A model generated the notes under the pieces. The model had not been told where the DNA came from. It made no database searches and saw only the letters and a list, made by a program, of their open reading frames with translations. DNA of 50,585 nt, taken from the NCBI GenBank assembly GCA_011049175.1, contig DSCJ01000128.1:1-50585 (forward strand), in the 5' to 3' direction. Of this stretch, positions 19,200 through 23,464 are shown in pieces. Each line of letters starts with the position of its first letter. The first letter of the stretch is position 1. Source of the stretch: Bacteroidota bacterium. GTDB lineage: Bacteria > Bacteroidota > Bacteroidia > Bacteroidales > VadinHA17. The position numbers were made by a program, and so were the translations under genes.

Positions 19200-20930
19200 T
19201 TACCAGTAAAAACGGGCGTGGTATACGGAGAAGTTTTCCTTTTCGTCCACCACCGTCAATACCAGTTCATGCCAGCGGTCACTTTCTACCCTTTCCGGGT
19301 CGAAGCGGTAGATCAGCAGATCGTTTTTCGGATCGTATTCGAAAAGGGCCCACCGGTTATCGATGTATCCGTGGTATGTCCTGATGCCTGAAAGATCGTC
19401 TTTTATTTTCACCCTTATATCCGCATTCCTTGTCATGTTTTTTTCATGGCGGATGTTCACGGGTTCGATCACGGGAGGCTGGGTGTCGGCCAGAACGGTA
19501 TATTTACCGAACTGACGGGTACGGGTGGTAAGGTATTTTCCTTCCCAGGATCCCCCGGCACACTGGTATTCTCCCTCTTTGTCAATATGTACCACACACA
19601 TTTTATTTTCCAGTCCGGTCGGAACGGAATCGGGGGCGATCCATATCTGAAACGGGTCATGGGCCGGAGTGGTGATCCGGTCGATGTGGTGCACCCTGCT
19701 GAAGCTTCCGTGTATTCTTTCCGTGCGTGCATAGGTGAAACAAAGGGTGTCGTAAAGGGCGCCTGCCGGGACTCTGATTTTGAATCCCTGTGATTCATAG
19801 ATGTTATCGTTTTGCCATTGGAACAGGGCAGTTTGGTGGGTGCGGCCGGATGTGGCCACTGGACCCGGCCTTTCCTGGTTCTGCACCGTAAAGGCCAGAT
19901 TCGACCGGTTTTCGTGCGAATCGGTAATGTCAATCGTGATGGTATGGACCAGGGTGTCGGTAAGGGTGATCCTTCCTGAATGCCGGATATCGTTTTCGTA
20001 GATGCTCAGGCGGTTGTTCGGGTCCAGAAAGGTTTTCTGTATGTTCTTCCCCGAGGTTACCCGTTCGGCATAGTCAATGTGGCTGTTGATGTAACGGGTT
20101 TCGGCAAAGGAGAACTCGCCGATGCGGTGGGCATAAATTTTCCGGCCATCGAGCTTCACTTCCAGGGAGTGGGTCCCGCATTTGTTCCAGGAATGATTGA
20201 CATAATCAATGGCTTCGATCCCGATACCGAAGGTTCCTGATACCGGTACAGGCTCAGGTGCATTCAGGGAATACCGGCCTTTGTTTCCGGAAACCGGAAT
20301 TTCTTTCTTTTCTGTCCTTCCCTGTACCGTACTGCCGGGTGTAAGAGGATAGAGATATATGTGCTGAATAACCGGCCGGATATCGTCTTCAATTTCCTGA
20401 AAAAAAGGAAGTGGGTCGATCGGATTCTGGTTCCGGCTGTTCCTGATTTCAAAATGAAGATGTGGGCCGGCTGAACTTCCTGTATTTCCAGAAAGCCCGA
20501 TCTGCTGACCACGCGTTACGGGAAATTGTTCCGGTTCGGGAAACAGGTTTATGGCATAGCTTTTTCTGGAATACTGTTCGTTTCTGACCCATGCCTCTAC
20601 CCCGGGCATAAAGGAATCCAGGTGTGCATAAACGGTAGTGTATCCGTTGGGATGGGCTATATAAAGGGCTTTTCCGAATCCATTGGGCGTAACAGCTATT
20701 CTCGAAATGTATCCGTCGGCACAGGCATAAACGGGAAGGCCGGAGCGCCCCCGGGTTTTGATATCTATTCCTGAATGGAAATGATCGGCCCGCAATTCAC
20801 CGAAATTGGCCGAAAGCAGCATCTGGATATCTACCGGTGGAACGAAAAGGCTTCCGGCATCGGTTGATGGCTGGGCCCGGACAGAAAGTAATATTCCCGC
20901 CAGGGAGGTGAACAATATCAGGTTCCTCAT
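19200..20930 (-). CDS. Secreted M23-family metallopeptidase
   Basis: 576 residues with a signal peptide (MRNLILFTSLAGILLSVRAQ). The LytM/M23 catalytic domain comes first, at about residues 35-180: zinc ligands His52 and Asp56 in HFHSGIDI, and the HLHF motif with His157 and His159. A long C-terminal region of about 380 residues follows, beta-rich by appearance and without a recognised family. M23 enzymes cut peptide bridges in peptidoglycan, or act as inactive activators; here the active-site residues are complete. It is convergent with the GH16 gene (26 bases apart) and divergent from the zapA cluster. Confidence 0.9.
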   Translation of the reverse strand: MRNLILFTSLAGILLSVRAQPSTDAGSLFVPPVDIQMLLSANFGELRADHFHSGIDIKTRGRSGLPVYACADGYISRIAVTPNGFGKALYIAHPNGYTTVYAHLDSFMPGVEAWVRNEQYSRKSYAINLFPEPEQFPVTRGQQIGLSGNTGSSAGPHLHFEIRNSRNQNPIDPLPFFQEIEDDIRPVIQHIYLYPLTPGSTVQGRTEKKEIPVSGNKGRYSLNAPEPVPVSGTFGIGIEAIDYVNHSWNKCGTHSLEVKLDGRKIYAHRIGEFSFAETRYINSHIDYAERVTSGKNIQKTFLDPNNRLSIYENDIRHSGRITLTDTLVHTITIDITDSHENRSNLAFTVQNQERPGPVATSGRTHQTALFQWQNDNIYESQGFKIRVPAGALYDTLCFTYARTERIHGSFSRVHHIDRITTPAHDPFQIWIAPDSVPTGLENKMCVVHIDKEGEYQCAGGSWEGKYLTTRTRQFGKYTVLADTQPPVIEPVNIRHEKNMTRNADIRVKIKDDLSGIRTYHGYIDNRWALFEYDPKNDLLIYRFDPERVESDRWHELVLTVVDEKENFSVYHARFYW

Positions 20931-20957
20931 GGTTTAATACATAACTGTGCCTGACGG

Positions 20958-20965
20958 CAAAACTA
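20958..20965 (-). promoter_or_regulatory. Candidate -7 box for the M23 peptidase gene
   Basis: On the - strand this is TAGTTTTG, an exact TAnnTTTG match 27 bases before the ATG. The -33 region is T-rich (TTTTCAG) but not a clear TTTG. Confidence 0.45.
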
Positions 20966-21002
20966 AGATTTATCCTGTTTTTACTGAAAAAACGATCATT
21001 AA

Positions 21003-21034
21003 TTTTTATATTTAGGCAATGGATGTTAATTTTG
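21003..21034 (+). promoter_or_regulatory. Candidate promoter of the coiled-coil/zapA operon
   Basis: TTTT (21003-21006), a 20-base spacer and TAATTTTG (21027-21034) fit the Bacteroidota pattern, with one mismatch in the -33 box. Initiation near 21041 would leave a leader of about 12 bases before the ATG at 21054. Confidence 0.55.
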
Positions 21035-21053
21035 TGTTCAGATCCTTTATTCT

Positions 21054-21347
21054 ATGGAGGGCAGTCAGGTATCTGTTATTCAGGAACTCAGGGGAAAAAT
21101 TGATCGTTTGATCCGTTCTTTTGAGTCGATCAGGGACAGGAACCGGGAACTGGAAGAAGAAGTAAGCCTGCTGAGGGAAAGGATCAGAGAAAAGGACGGG
21201 GAAATTGCCGAACTGACAGAAAAGAATAAGCAGCTTCAGTTATCCAGGGCTTTGATAACAGGAGGAGAGGATGAAACCGAAGCGAAGACAAATGTAAACA
21301 GGATTGTGCGGGAGATAGACAAGTGTATTGCTCTTTTGAACAGGTGA
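21054..21347 (+). CDS. Small coiled-coil protein next to zapA (possible ZapB-like partner)
   Basis: 97 residues, almost wholly a charged coiled coil from about residue 8 to 65 (RELEEEVSLLRERIREKDGEI), then a short conserved-looking tail NVNRIVREIDKCIALLNR. No enzyme motif is present. It starts at ATG 21054 and ends about 13 bases before the zapA ATG, so the two form an operon. Size, coiled-coil structure and position suggest a division-associated partner of ZapA, similar in build to ZapB. That role is inferred from context only. Confidence 0.7.
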   Translation: MEGSQVSVIQELRGKIDRLIRSFESIRDRNRELEEEVSLLRERIREKDGEIAELTEKNKQLQLSRALITGGEDETEAKTNVNRIVREIDKCIALLNR

Positions 21348-21360
21348 ATACAAAGTGGAT

Positions 21361-21654
21361 ATGGAGGACAAGCTTTCCATCAGGGTTAATCTGGCAGACA
21401 GGTATTATCCGCTGAAGATTGACCGGAAAGACGAAGAAAGAATTAGGAGGGCAGCCAAATTGATTAATGAAAAAATTCTGCAATACAAAAAACGATATAT
21501 CGACAAAGATATACAGGATTTTATGGCTATGGCCGCCCTTCAGTTTGTGACCCGGGTTCTGGAACTGGAAGAGAAACAGGAAGAAAATGAAATGATTGAC
21601 AGGATCAGGGAAATCAGTCGCGACCTGGAAACGTATCTGGAAAAGAGTAATTAG
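21361..21654 (+). CDS. zapA: Cell division protein ZapA
   Basis: 97 residues from the ATG at 21361; a GTG at 21355 would add two residues. It matches the ZapA pattern: an N-terminal beta-hairpin (KLSIRVNLADRYYPLKIDRKDEE), then RIRRAAKLINEKI, DFMAMAALQFVTRVLEL and a C-terminal coiled coil. ZapA binds and bundles FtsZ at the division ring in the cytosol. It is followed directly by the 6S RNA candidate, the same order as zapA-ssrS in many proteobacteria. Confidence 0.85.
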   Translation: MEDKLSIRVNLADRYYPLKIDRKDEERIRRAAKLINEKILQYKKRYIDKDIQDFMAMAALQFVTRVLELEEKQEENEMIDRIREISRDLETYLEKSN

Positions 21655-21670
21655 GTTCTTTACATACAAA

Positions 21671-21870
21671 GAGTTTGCCCGCATTAATTCTTCAATAATC
21701 TTTTGAAACTCAACAATTCAAAAATTGGAGGTATGCTCATGGCATCTATGGCAGGCCCCAATCCTTCGGGATTCTGAAAAGACAGGGGAAACCAGAAATG
21801 CATTGGCGCCTCCCCCCATGATTATCAGGGGTTTTCTAAAAGTGTTGGGGAATTTAATGCGGGTTTTTTT
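21671..21870 (+). ncRNA. ssrS: 6S RNA candidate (SsrS, 6S-Flavo type)
   Basis: The zapA-rny gap folds into a long rod. The closing stem pairs 21678-21690 (CCCGCATTAATTC) with 21850-21863 (GAATTTAATGCGGG, one bulge). Next come CTTTT / AAAAG, GAAA / TTTC and CTC / GGG (21700-21711 with 21829-21842). An open bubble of about 15 and 13 bases follows (around 21712-21726 and 21814-21828), then GGAGG / CCTCC, and an apical arm with CCCC / GGGG and a perfect AATCC-TTCG-GGATT hairpin. Seven T directly after the closing stem (21864-21870) form the terminator. Closing stem, central bubble and apical arm are the hallmark of 6S RNA, which mimics an open promoter and binds RNA polymerase holoenzyme. Exact ends are uncertain by several bases. 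Confidence 0.72.
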
Positions 21871-21898
21871 ATAACCGAAATTTTAAAATTATACAAAA

Positions 21899-23464
21899 AT
21901 GATATTCAATATACTACTGATGAGCGCCCTGCTGATCTATCTGATTATCGGGGTTGCGGCCCTGTTGGCCGGAGTAGGGGTGGGGTACTTTTTCTGGGAT
22001 CTGGCCCTGAAGAAAAAAAGCCGCGCTATCATTCGCGAGGCCGAATCGGAAGGGGAAATGATCAAAAAGGATAAGATCCTGCAGGCCAAGGAAAAATTTC
22101 TGCAACTGAAATCCGAGCATGAAAAAATCATTTCCGAAAAAAGCAACCGGTTATTGCAGTCGGAAAACCGCCTGAAACAGAAAGAAGCGGTCATATCGCA
22201 GAAGCTGGAGGAAGTGACCCGGAAAGGGAAGGAGCTTGACATACTCAGAGAGAACTTGACGAGCCAGCTGGAACTGGTGGAGAAGAAGAATGACGAACTG
22301 GAAAAGATGCACCAGCAGCAGGTGGAGCAACTGGAAACCATTTCGGGGCTGTCGGCTCAGGAGGCCAGGGACCAACTGATCGAGTCGCTGAAGGCTGAGG
22401 CCAAGACCGATGCCATGTCGTATGTCAATGAAATTATGGCCGAAGCCAAAATGACCGCAAACAAGGAAGCCAAACGGATCGTGCTGCAGACAATCCAGCG
22501 GGTGGCCACCGAATCGGCGGTGGAAAACTCGGTTACGGTGTTCCATATCGAGTCGGATGAGATAAAAGGCCGGATCATTGGCAGGGAGGGCCGCAATATT
22601 CGGGCGCTGGAAGCTGCTACCGGTGTGGAGATCATTGTAGACGATACCCCTGAAGCCATCATTCTTTCCGCCTTTGATCCGGTCAGGCGTGAGGTGGCCC
22701 GCTTGTCGCTGCACCAGCTGGTCACCGACGGAAGGATCCATCCGGCCCGGATCGAGGAGGTGGTGCAGAAAACACAGAAGCAGATCGAGGAAGAGATTGT
22801 GGAGGTGGGGAAACGTACTACCATTGATCTGGGGATACACGGATTGCATCCCGAACTGATCAGACTGATCGGCAAGATGAAATACCGGTCATCCTACGGG
22901 CAGAACCTGCTGCAGCATTCCAGGGAAGTAGCCAACCTGTCGGCCATCATGGCCGCCGAACTGGGATTGAATCCCAAACTGGCCAAAAGGGCCGGGCTGC
23001 TTCATGATATCGGGAAAGTGCCCGATGATGAACCTGAACTGCCACATGCCGTGCTGGGTATGAAACTGGCCGAGAAATTCAAGGAAAAACCCGAGGTATG
23101 CAATGCCATCGGCTCCCATCACGATGAGATAGAAATGACTACTATGATCGCTCCCATTGTGCAGGTTTGCGATGCCATTTCCGGAGCAAGGCCGGGCGCA
23201 CGGCGGGAAGTGGTGGAATCATACATCAAACGGCTGAAAAATCTGGAAGAACTGGCCCTTTCGTATCCCGGTGTCCTGAAAACCTACGCCATACAGGCAG
23301 GTCGCGAACTGCGGGTAATTGTAGGCAGTGACCGGGTGACCGATAAAGAGGCCGAAAGTCTGTCATACGATATTGCTCAGAAAATCCAGAATGAAATGAC
23401 CTATCCGGGTCAGATCAAAATTACAGTAATCAGAGAAACCAGGTCTGTGACCTTTGCCAAATAA
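21899..23464 (+). CDS. rny: Ribonuclease Y
   Basis: 521 residues, the typical RNase Y length. In order: an N-terminal membrane helix ([21 protein letters not shown]), a long charged coiled coil (about 40-190), a KH domain ([19 protein letters not shown] from about residue 222) and an HD domain with catalytic His369-Asp370 in [11 protein letters not shown]. RNase Y is a membrane-bound endoribonuclease that starts mRNA decay. It starts at ATG 21899; a second in-frame ATG lies seven codons later. Its stop overlaps the wecB start (TAATG at 23462-23466). Confidence 0.95.

Follow-up and report, generated by a model that had tools for sequence, protein, structure and literature searches.

A probable 6S RNA between zapA and rny in a Bacteroidota bacterium and a conserved boxA-like element upstream of it

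Introduction

6S RNA switches structure upon pRNA synthesis, and in E. coli and B. subtilis the main pRNA starts in the 5' strand of the central bubble, with pRNA* from the 3' strand as a second kind. The element boxA is the NusB/S10 site in rRNA and also occurs in CRISPR leaders. In Bacteroidota, the −7 motif of promoters is TAnnTTTG.

Within this phylum, 6S RNA and two classes of pRNA, of the 5'-strand as well as the 3'-strand kind, were seen by dRNA-seq in B. thetaiotaomicron, as described in PMC7366714, and 6S RNA was detected in F. psychrophilum (PMC9723704). The families 6S-Flavo (RF01685) and Bacteroidales-1 (RF01693) come from PMC2864571; for the latter, the Rfam text has "6S-Bacteroidales RNA suggested." The gene order zapA-ssrS is described for proteobacteria in PMC7641849. 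As for boxA, it is also used on the suhB leader (PMC5725501); that boxA survey differs in scope from the present analysis in that it covers gamma-proteobacteria and, by its own statement, leaves non-coding RNAs aside. Among the open-licence papers listed in searches, no title links boxA or antitermination with 6S RNA.

Results

A candidate 6S RNA downstream of zapA

In the window, by which we mean the whole stretch of 50,585 nucleotides that was analyzed, zapA (ending at 21654) and rny, the gene of RNase Y (starting at 21899), are separated by a gap of 244 bases, in which a preliminary description of this DNA had placed a candidate 6S RNA while giving the length as 245 (Table 1). The only match to TAnnTTTG on the plus strand of 20901-21900 is the one at 21027, upstream of a gene that we call zapB-like, a name suggested by its position and its coiled coil. 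The motif is absent between zapA and the 6S RNA and likewise from 21871-21898, between the T-run of the RNA and rny, so that expression of RNase Y possibly relies on transcription passing the 6S terminator. A sigma-70 promoter and a hairpin terminator were both discarded as candidates: a scan for them returned two promoter-like sites on the minus strand, which is the chance level, and zero terminators, the latter because its loop limit was 3-8.

Table 1. Features of the zapB-zapA-rny region, in coordinates of the window
Feature	Coordinates	Strand	Evidence or remark
Candidate operon promoter TAATTTTG	21027..21034	+	Matches TAnnTTTG, 5' of zapB-like gene
zapB-like coiled-coil gene	21054..21347	+	97-aa ORF; Pfam DivIC 24.9 bits, below cut-off of 28.9
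zapA	21355..21654	+	Pfam ZapA 60.2 bits (cut-off 23.8)
boxA-like element GTTCTTTACATA	21655..21666	+	Directly 3' of zapA stop; same position in relatives
Probable 6S RNA, 194-nt unit by homology	21677..21870	+	Fold, covariation, Rfam, R1, sequence profile
Closing stem, 5' strand GCCCGCAUU	21677..21685	+	Covariation and fold
GAAACUC, 5' strand of helix below central bubble	21705..21711	+	Alignment and consensus structure
Central bubble, 5' strand	21712..21726	+	Unpaired in single-sequence fold, nearly unpaired in consensus
GGGGUUUUC, partner of GAAACUC	21828..21836	+	Consensus structure, fold
Closing stem, 3' strand AAUGCGGGU	21856..21864	+	Covariation and fold
T7	21864..21870	+	With closing stem, proposed intrinsic terminator
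rny (RNase Y)	21899..23464	+	Pfam RNase_Y_N 125.2, HD 72.9, KH_1 29.1 bits

Positions 21671-21870 fold at −70.8 kcal/mol, compared with −51.95 ± 4.2 for shuffled sequences (z = −4.49), and the unit defined by homology, 21677-21870, gave a z of −4.51; in neither case was any of 200 shuffles as good. The predicted rod consists of a long closing duplex, an open 5' strand of the bubble, a short hairpin in its 3' strand, an apical arm (CCUUCGGG) and the terminal T7, which bears out the rod with bubble, UUCG-capped arm and T7 that had been described beforehand. The closing stem of 13 pairs named there was approximate, since more pairs are formed in the single-sequence fold and, in the consensus, the part below the bubble is made up of helices of 7, 9, and 8 pairs. 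The outer helix has seven pairs, five of which are invariant across 21 sequences, and AAACUCAACA, within the GAAACUC region, is invariant in the alignment (A1) described below. Between 21809 and 21836, the model allows a GGGG to pair either with GAAACUC, giving the closed rod, or with a CCCC just upstream, giving the 3'-bubble hairpin, an alternative that resembles the structural switch of 6S RNA.

Of 60 related genomes searched at the DNA level, 39 contained the region of the zapA gap. Alignment A1 holds 21 RNAs out of 34 that were delimited; left out were near-copies or incomplete sequences (L002, L008, L016 [with N], L019, L027, and L028), distant or repeated ones (L033 to L035 and L037 to L039, as well as L036, a repeat of L001), and three loci that were not delimited (L009, L013, and L020). 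The RNAalifold consensus of A1 has 43 pairs, with 95.9% of cells paired and double changes in 23 of the 43. The rod with its closing stem, central bubble and apical arm is kept by compensatory changes, for which the preliminary description had proposed to look in related zapA-rny gaps: A1 contains 93 double-change cells, compared with 26.9 ± 4.3 in 500 shuffles and with 13 to 20 when the strands were slid against each other, the latter comparison being one in which the consensus is favored because it was derived from A1 itself. A sequence profile of the other 20 A1 sequences matched the RNA of the window at an E value of 4.2e-40; a close relative of the window's copy (G001) is absent from A1.

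At curated cut-offs, Rfam finds only tRNA in the window. Below them, the best match against all of Rfam is Bacteroidales-1, which aligns end to end with 36.1 bits where the cut-off is 60 (E = 1e-4 for 271 bases). As regards the two covariance models that had been put forward beforehand, 6S/SsrS (RF00013) aligned end to end but weakly (18.5 bits, cut-off 46.4; E = 0.072), and 6S-Flavo gave no match in this genome, by which direct membership of 6S-Flavo is ruled out. A covariance model built from A1, and so containing the window sequence (R1), places the limits of the RNA at 21677-21870 and scores it at 171.6 bits, its own sequence being in the model. The proposal of a 6S RNA between zapA and rny is supported by covariation, by the match to RF01693 below its cut-off and by R1, through which the link to the 6S models is an indirect one, and weakly by RF00013; judged from sequence and modeled structure, 21677-21870 is the probable 6S RNA of this bacterium.

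A probable single family, usually in the zapA-rny gap

R1 matched a locus recognized by RF01685 (L037, 47.2 bits), two recognized by RF01693 (L031, 58.0 bits, and L032, 38.4 bits) and, at about 30 bits, the more distant loci L169 to L171. In one genome (G071), RF01693 and RF01685 match one and the same place in the zapA-rny gap. Because R1 reaches loci of both, Bacteroidales-1 and 6S-Flavo seem to belong to a single 6S family of the Bacteroidia, which in most cases sits in the zapA-rny gap. The Rfam models by themselves yielded little: of 296 genomes from the phylum, 6 had a match to RF01693, and of 119 from the class, 3 had one to RF01685; R1 found its RNA in 33 of the 119 genomes drawn for it, under filters that lose weak matches (that in G071, for one).

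zapA and/or rny adjoin the RNA in 38 of 49 sampled loci. The likeness to zapA-ssrS that had been pointed out for the window holds, in that ssrS of E. coli also directly follows zapA and the rod architecture is that of 6S/SsrS, but a zapA-rny placement is widespread in the Bacteroidia and nothing special to this locus, and the next gene is fau in E. coli and rny in the window. The 6S-Flavo matches L037 and L038 sit in the zapA-rny gap and carry the upstream box described below. The two Bacteroidales-1 loci above the cut-off (L031 and L032) differ: their flanks show no match to zapA or rny, a TAnnTTTG promoter stands at −23, and the box is lacking. A second, weaker R1 match (35.3 bits) was seen at L230:972-1179 (G394:C93:5472-5679), besides the zapA-linked copy of that genome (L199); it may represent an additional 6S RNA that lacks the box and has a TAnnTTTG promoter to itself.

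A conserved box upstream of the RNA

Directly after the zapA stop lies a boxA-like element that was absent from the preliminary description. At this position, relatives have [AG]CGTTCTTT(A)ACATA or similar, and most sampled loci carry a GTTCTTT(A)ACATA-like sequence 5' of the RNA. In a set of 49 loci that had been collected with Rfam models, with R1 or through their rny gene, and never through the box, GTTCTTT was the commonest 7-mer in the 120 nt 5' of the RNA, with 17 of 24 family labels (23 families, "f116b" being the second match in G394) and 32 of 49 loci, counts that are not independent since the loci are related; in 50 mononucleotide shuffles, no word exceeded 8 labels. Farther upstream, in the adjoining 120 nt, the same word occurred at a single locus, and downstream at none; GYTCWTW sites added up to 43 within the first 120 nt, compared with 9 over the 280 nt beyond. 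A box at the conserved position was counted in 40 of the 49, with the words of L228 (the T-run of an upstream hairpin) and L222 (GCTCATA at −110) judged spurious by eye and excluded. In 100 bases around the E. coli zapA-ssrS junction, GYTCWTW is absent.

Genome-wide, CGTTCTTTNNNATA was not enriched, with 167 matches compared with 183 for the reversed control (summed over 36 genomes), and the box as the mark of a genome-wide regulon was rejected. A scan of the collection for box plus RNA core gave at least 118 stretches. Among the matches listed (80 loci), 69 had zapA and/or rny (50 had both) and 11 neither, these 11 including all five loci that, by title, are not Bacteroidota (L072, L087, L094, L100, and L129); going by titles, the matches listed extend over Flavobacteriaceae, Bacteroidales, Marinifilum and Salinivirgaceae, which speaks for breadth and not for frequency, since the box was part of the scan pattern. 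The box of L018 and L024 (GTTCTTTAA) includes the stop codon of zapA. Long stretches between box and RNA often fold into one or two hairpins (L199, L201 to L204, L206 to L209, L211, L213, L216, L218, L219, and L224), possibly as a processing site or a spacer.

The presence of the box was then set against genomic setting and promoter. In its loose form GYTCWTN, for which equal base composition would predict about 0.1 sites in 120 nt, it was found within 120 nt at 36 of the 38 loci linked to zapA or rny (L033 and L034 being without it). In all of these 38, the 77 nt next to the RNA are free of TAnnTTTG, the motif standing at −78 and −81 in two of them. Among the 11 loci with no zapA or rny in the examined flanks, 4 carry the box (L209, L210, L215, and L220). 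At the unlinked loci L031, L032, L226, L227, L228, and L230, which are box-free (the word of L228 discounted), TAnnTTTG stands between −12 and −44; all that L222 shows is a variant, GATCTTTGA. Box and RNA are 14 to 108 nt apart, a spread that speaks against a core promoter element. A TAnnTTTG match 45 nt upstream of the box in L215 and, by eye, TACATTAG before the box in L210 and L220 would place the box inside the transcript. In an overlapping set of 29 Bacteroidia rny loci, the box was present in 14 of the 16 with the RNA core (that of L170 being counted by eye); among the 13 without the core, one (L194), a short zapA-rny gap lacking the RNA, holds GTTCTTATATAAA.

Resemblance to rRNA boxA

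The rRNA boxA sites of the same genome, GTTCTTTGAACGATTG and GTTCTTTGACGTATTG, both share the core GTTCTTT with the box of the window, which is one base short and reaches only p = 0.305 against the rRNA-derived matrix, so that the strict 14-mer form of the matrix misses it. At p ≤ 0.01, this matrix matched the upstream stretch of 18 of 49 loci, whereas either of two control stretches was matched at a single locus of 49; the other 31 upstream stretches did not reach that level. The rRNA sites of other genomes are GTTC[TA]TTGA(C/A)ATATTG-like. The two kinds of site have in common the GTTC[TA]TT core and the relation to a structured untranslated RNA, and they differ after the core, where rRNA sites have GA, often followed by ATATTG, and many 6S boxes have A or T for the G.

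Within single genomes, the box and rRNA boxA could be compared only in some, since 16S was found in 10 of 21 and in 20 of 42 genomes; the pattern for the rRNA start had no match in L232 and L250, the former of which was read separately. Agreement in GTTCATT between the rRNA and the 6S sites was seen only for G088 and G147, as against five flavobacterial genomes (G080, G084, G116, G143, and G162) in which rRNA has GTTCAT- and the 6S box GYTCTT-. L033 and L034 have a variant rRNA boxA (GATCATTGACAT) and, although linked, no box at the 6S RNA. A NusB gene is present in the genome of the window (PF01029, 74 bits).

Discussion

For the 6S RNA of this bacterium, we consider it likely that transcription starts at the zapB-zapA promoter, that boxA shields it and that it ends at the RNA's own closing stem and T-run. 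In the simplest reading, a single transcript would run from the promoter at 21027 through zapB, zapA and the 6S RNA, with read-through into rny. The RNA, for which no promoter of its own is recognizable, is most likely the untranslated tail of the zapB-zapA mRNA. Translation would end at the zapA stop and leave the RNA 3' of it open to Rho; recruitment of NusB and S10 by the boxA-like element may then carry RNA polymerase through this structured RNA that is not translated, in the manner of rRNA operons. The closing stem and T7 would end most of the transcription, and rny would be expressed by read-through or from a promoter not seen here. Judging by its family, the rod would imitate an open promoter and keep hold of the housekeeping RNA polymerase until it has served as template for a short pRNA.

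That the RNA is 6S but the box serves as an RNase processing signal freeing it from the zapA mRNA, or as a site of another protein, appears rather unlikely. Most loci lack a promoter beside the RNA, so that some processing would be expected, and many loci with long spacers have hairpins between box and RNA, but the box resembles the rRNA sites of the same genomes and is found in four unlinked loci, including L215, where TAnnTTTG precedes the box GTTCATCGACATATCATTG. A role of the box as part of a 6S promoter is quite improbable: its variable distance from the RNA, its lack of likeness to the TAnnTTTG that unlinked box-free loci carry, and the TAnnTTTG match upstream of it in L215 speak against this, even though it stands 14 to 40 nt 5' of the RNA in many loci and a promoter there would account for independent 6S expression.

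Two further explanations concern the RNA itself. A cis-acting 5' leader of rny, working as an attenuator or in autoregulation of RNase Y, would suit a structure that lies directly 5' of rny, ends in a terminator-like stem and T-run and has no TAnnTTTG after it; it is nevertheless highly unlikely, given that the RNA family occurs at 11 of 49 loci without a zapA or rny match in the examined flanks and that R1 and Rfam connect the RNA to 6S families. The Rfam scores below curated cut-offs would also be compatible with a chance fold or a decayed, functionless copy, an extremely improbable reading that is contradicted by the covariation and by the failure of all 200 shuffles to fold as well.

Beyond this locus, we lean towards the view that in much of the Bacteroidia 6S RNA is under boxA antitermination from the zapB-zapA operon, which would make it the third kind of non-coding RNA so controlled, after rRNA and CRISPR arrays. 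Since S10, on which boxA relies, is a ribosomal protein, the output of 6S RNA would be tied to the synthesis of ribosomes, and the sequences compared here hint at such a tie between 6S production and the ribosome-making machinery. Where 6S RNA moved elsewhere, with a promoter at its start, the need for boxA is proposed to have been lost.

If these readings hold, 6S-Flavo and Bacteroidales-1 are joined into one RNA with a common genomic home, annotation pipelines could find Bacteroidota 6S RNAs that current models miss (that of the present genome is below the cut-off), and the antitermination machinery of ribosome making acquires a testable link to an RNA that restrains RNA polymerase.

Elsewhere in the genome of the window, a boxA match, GTTCTTTGACATATTGGAAG, lies between cas2 and a CRISPR array (G000:C23:45810; L293:1011-1030), the array showing two repeats before the end of the contig.
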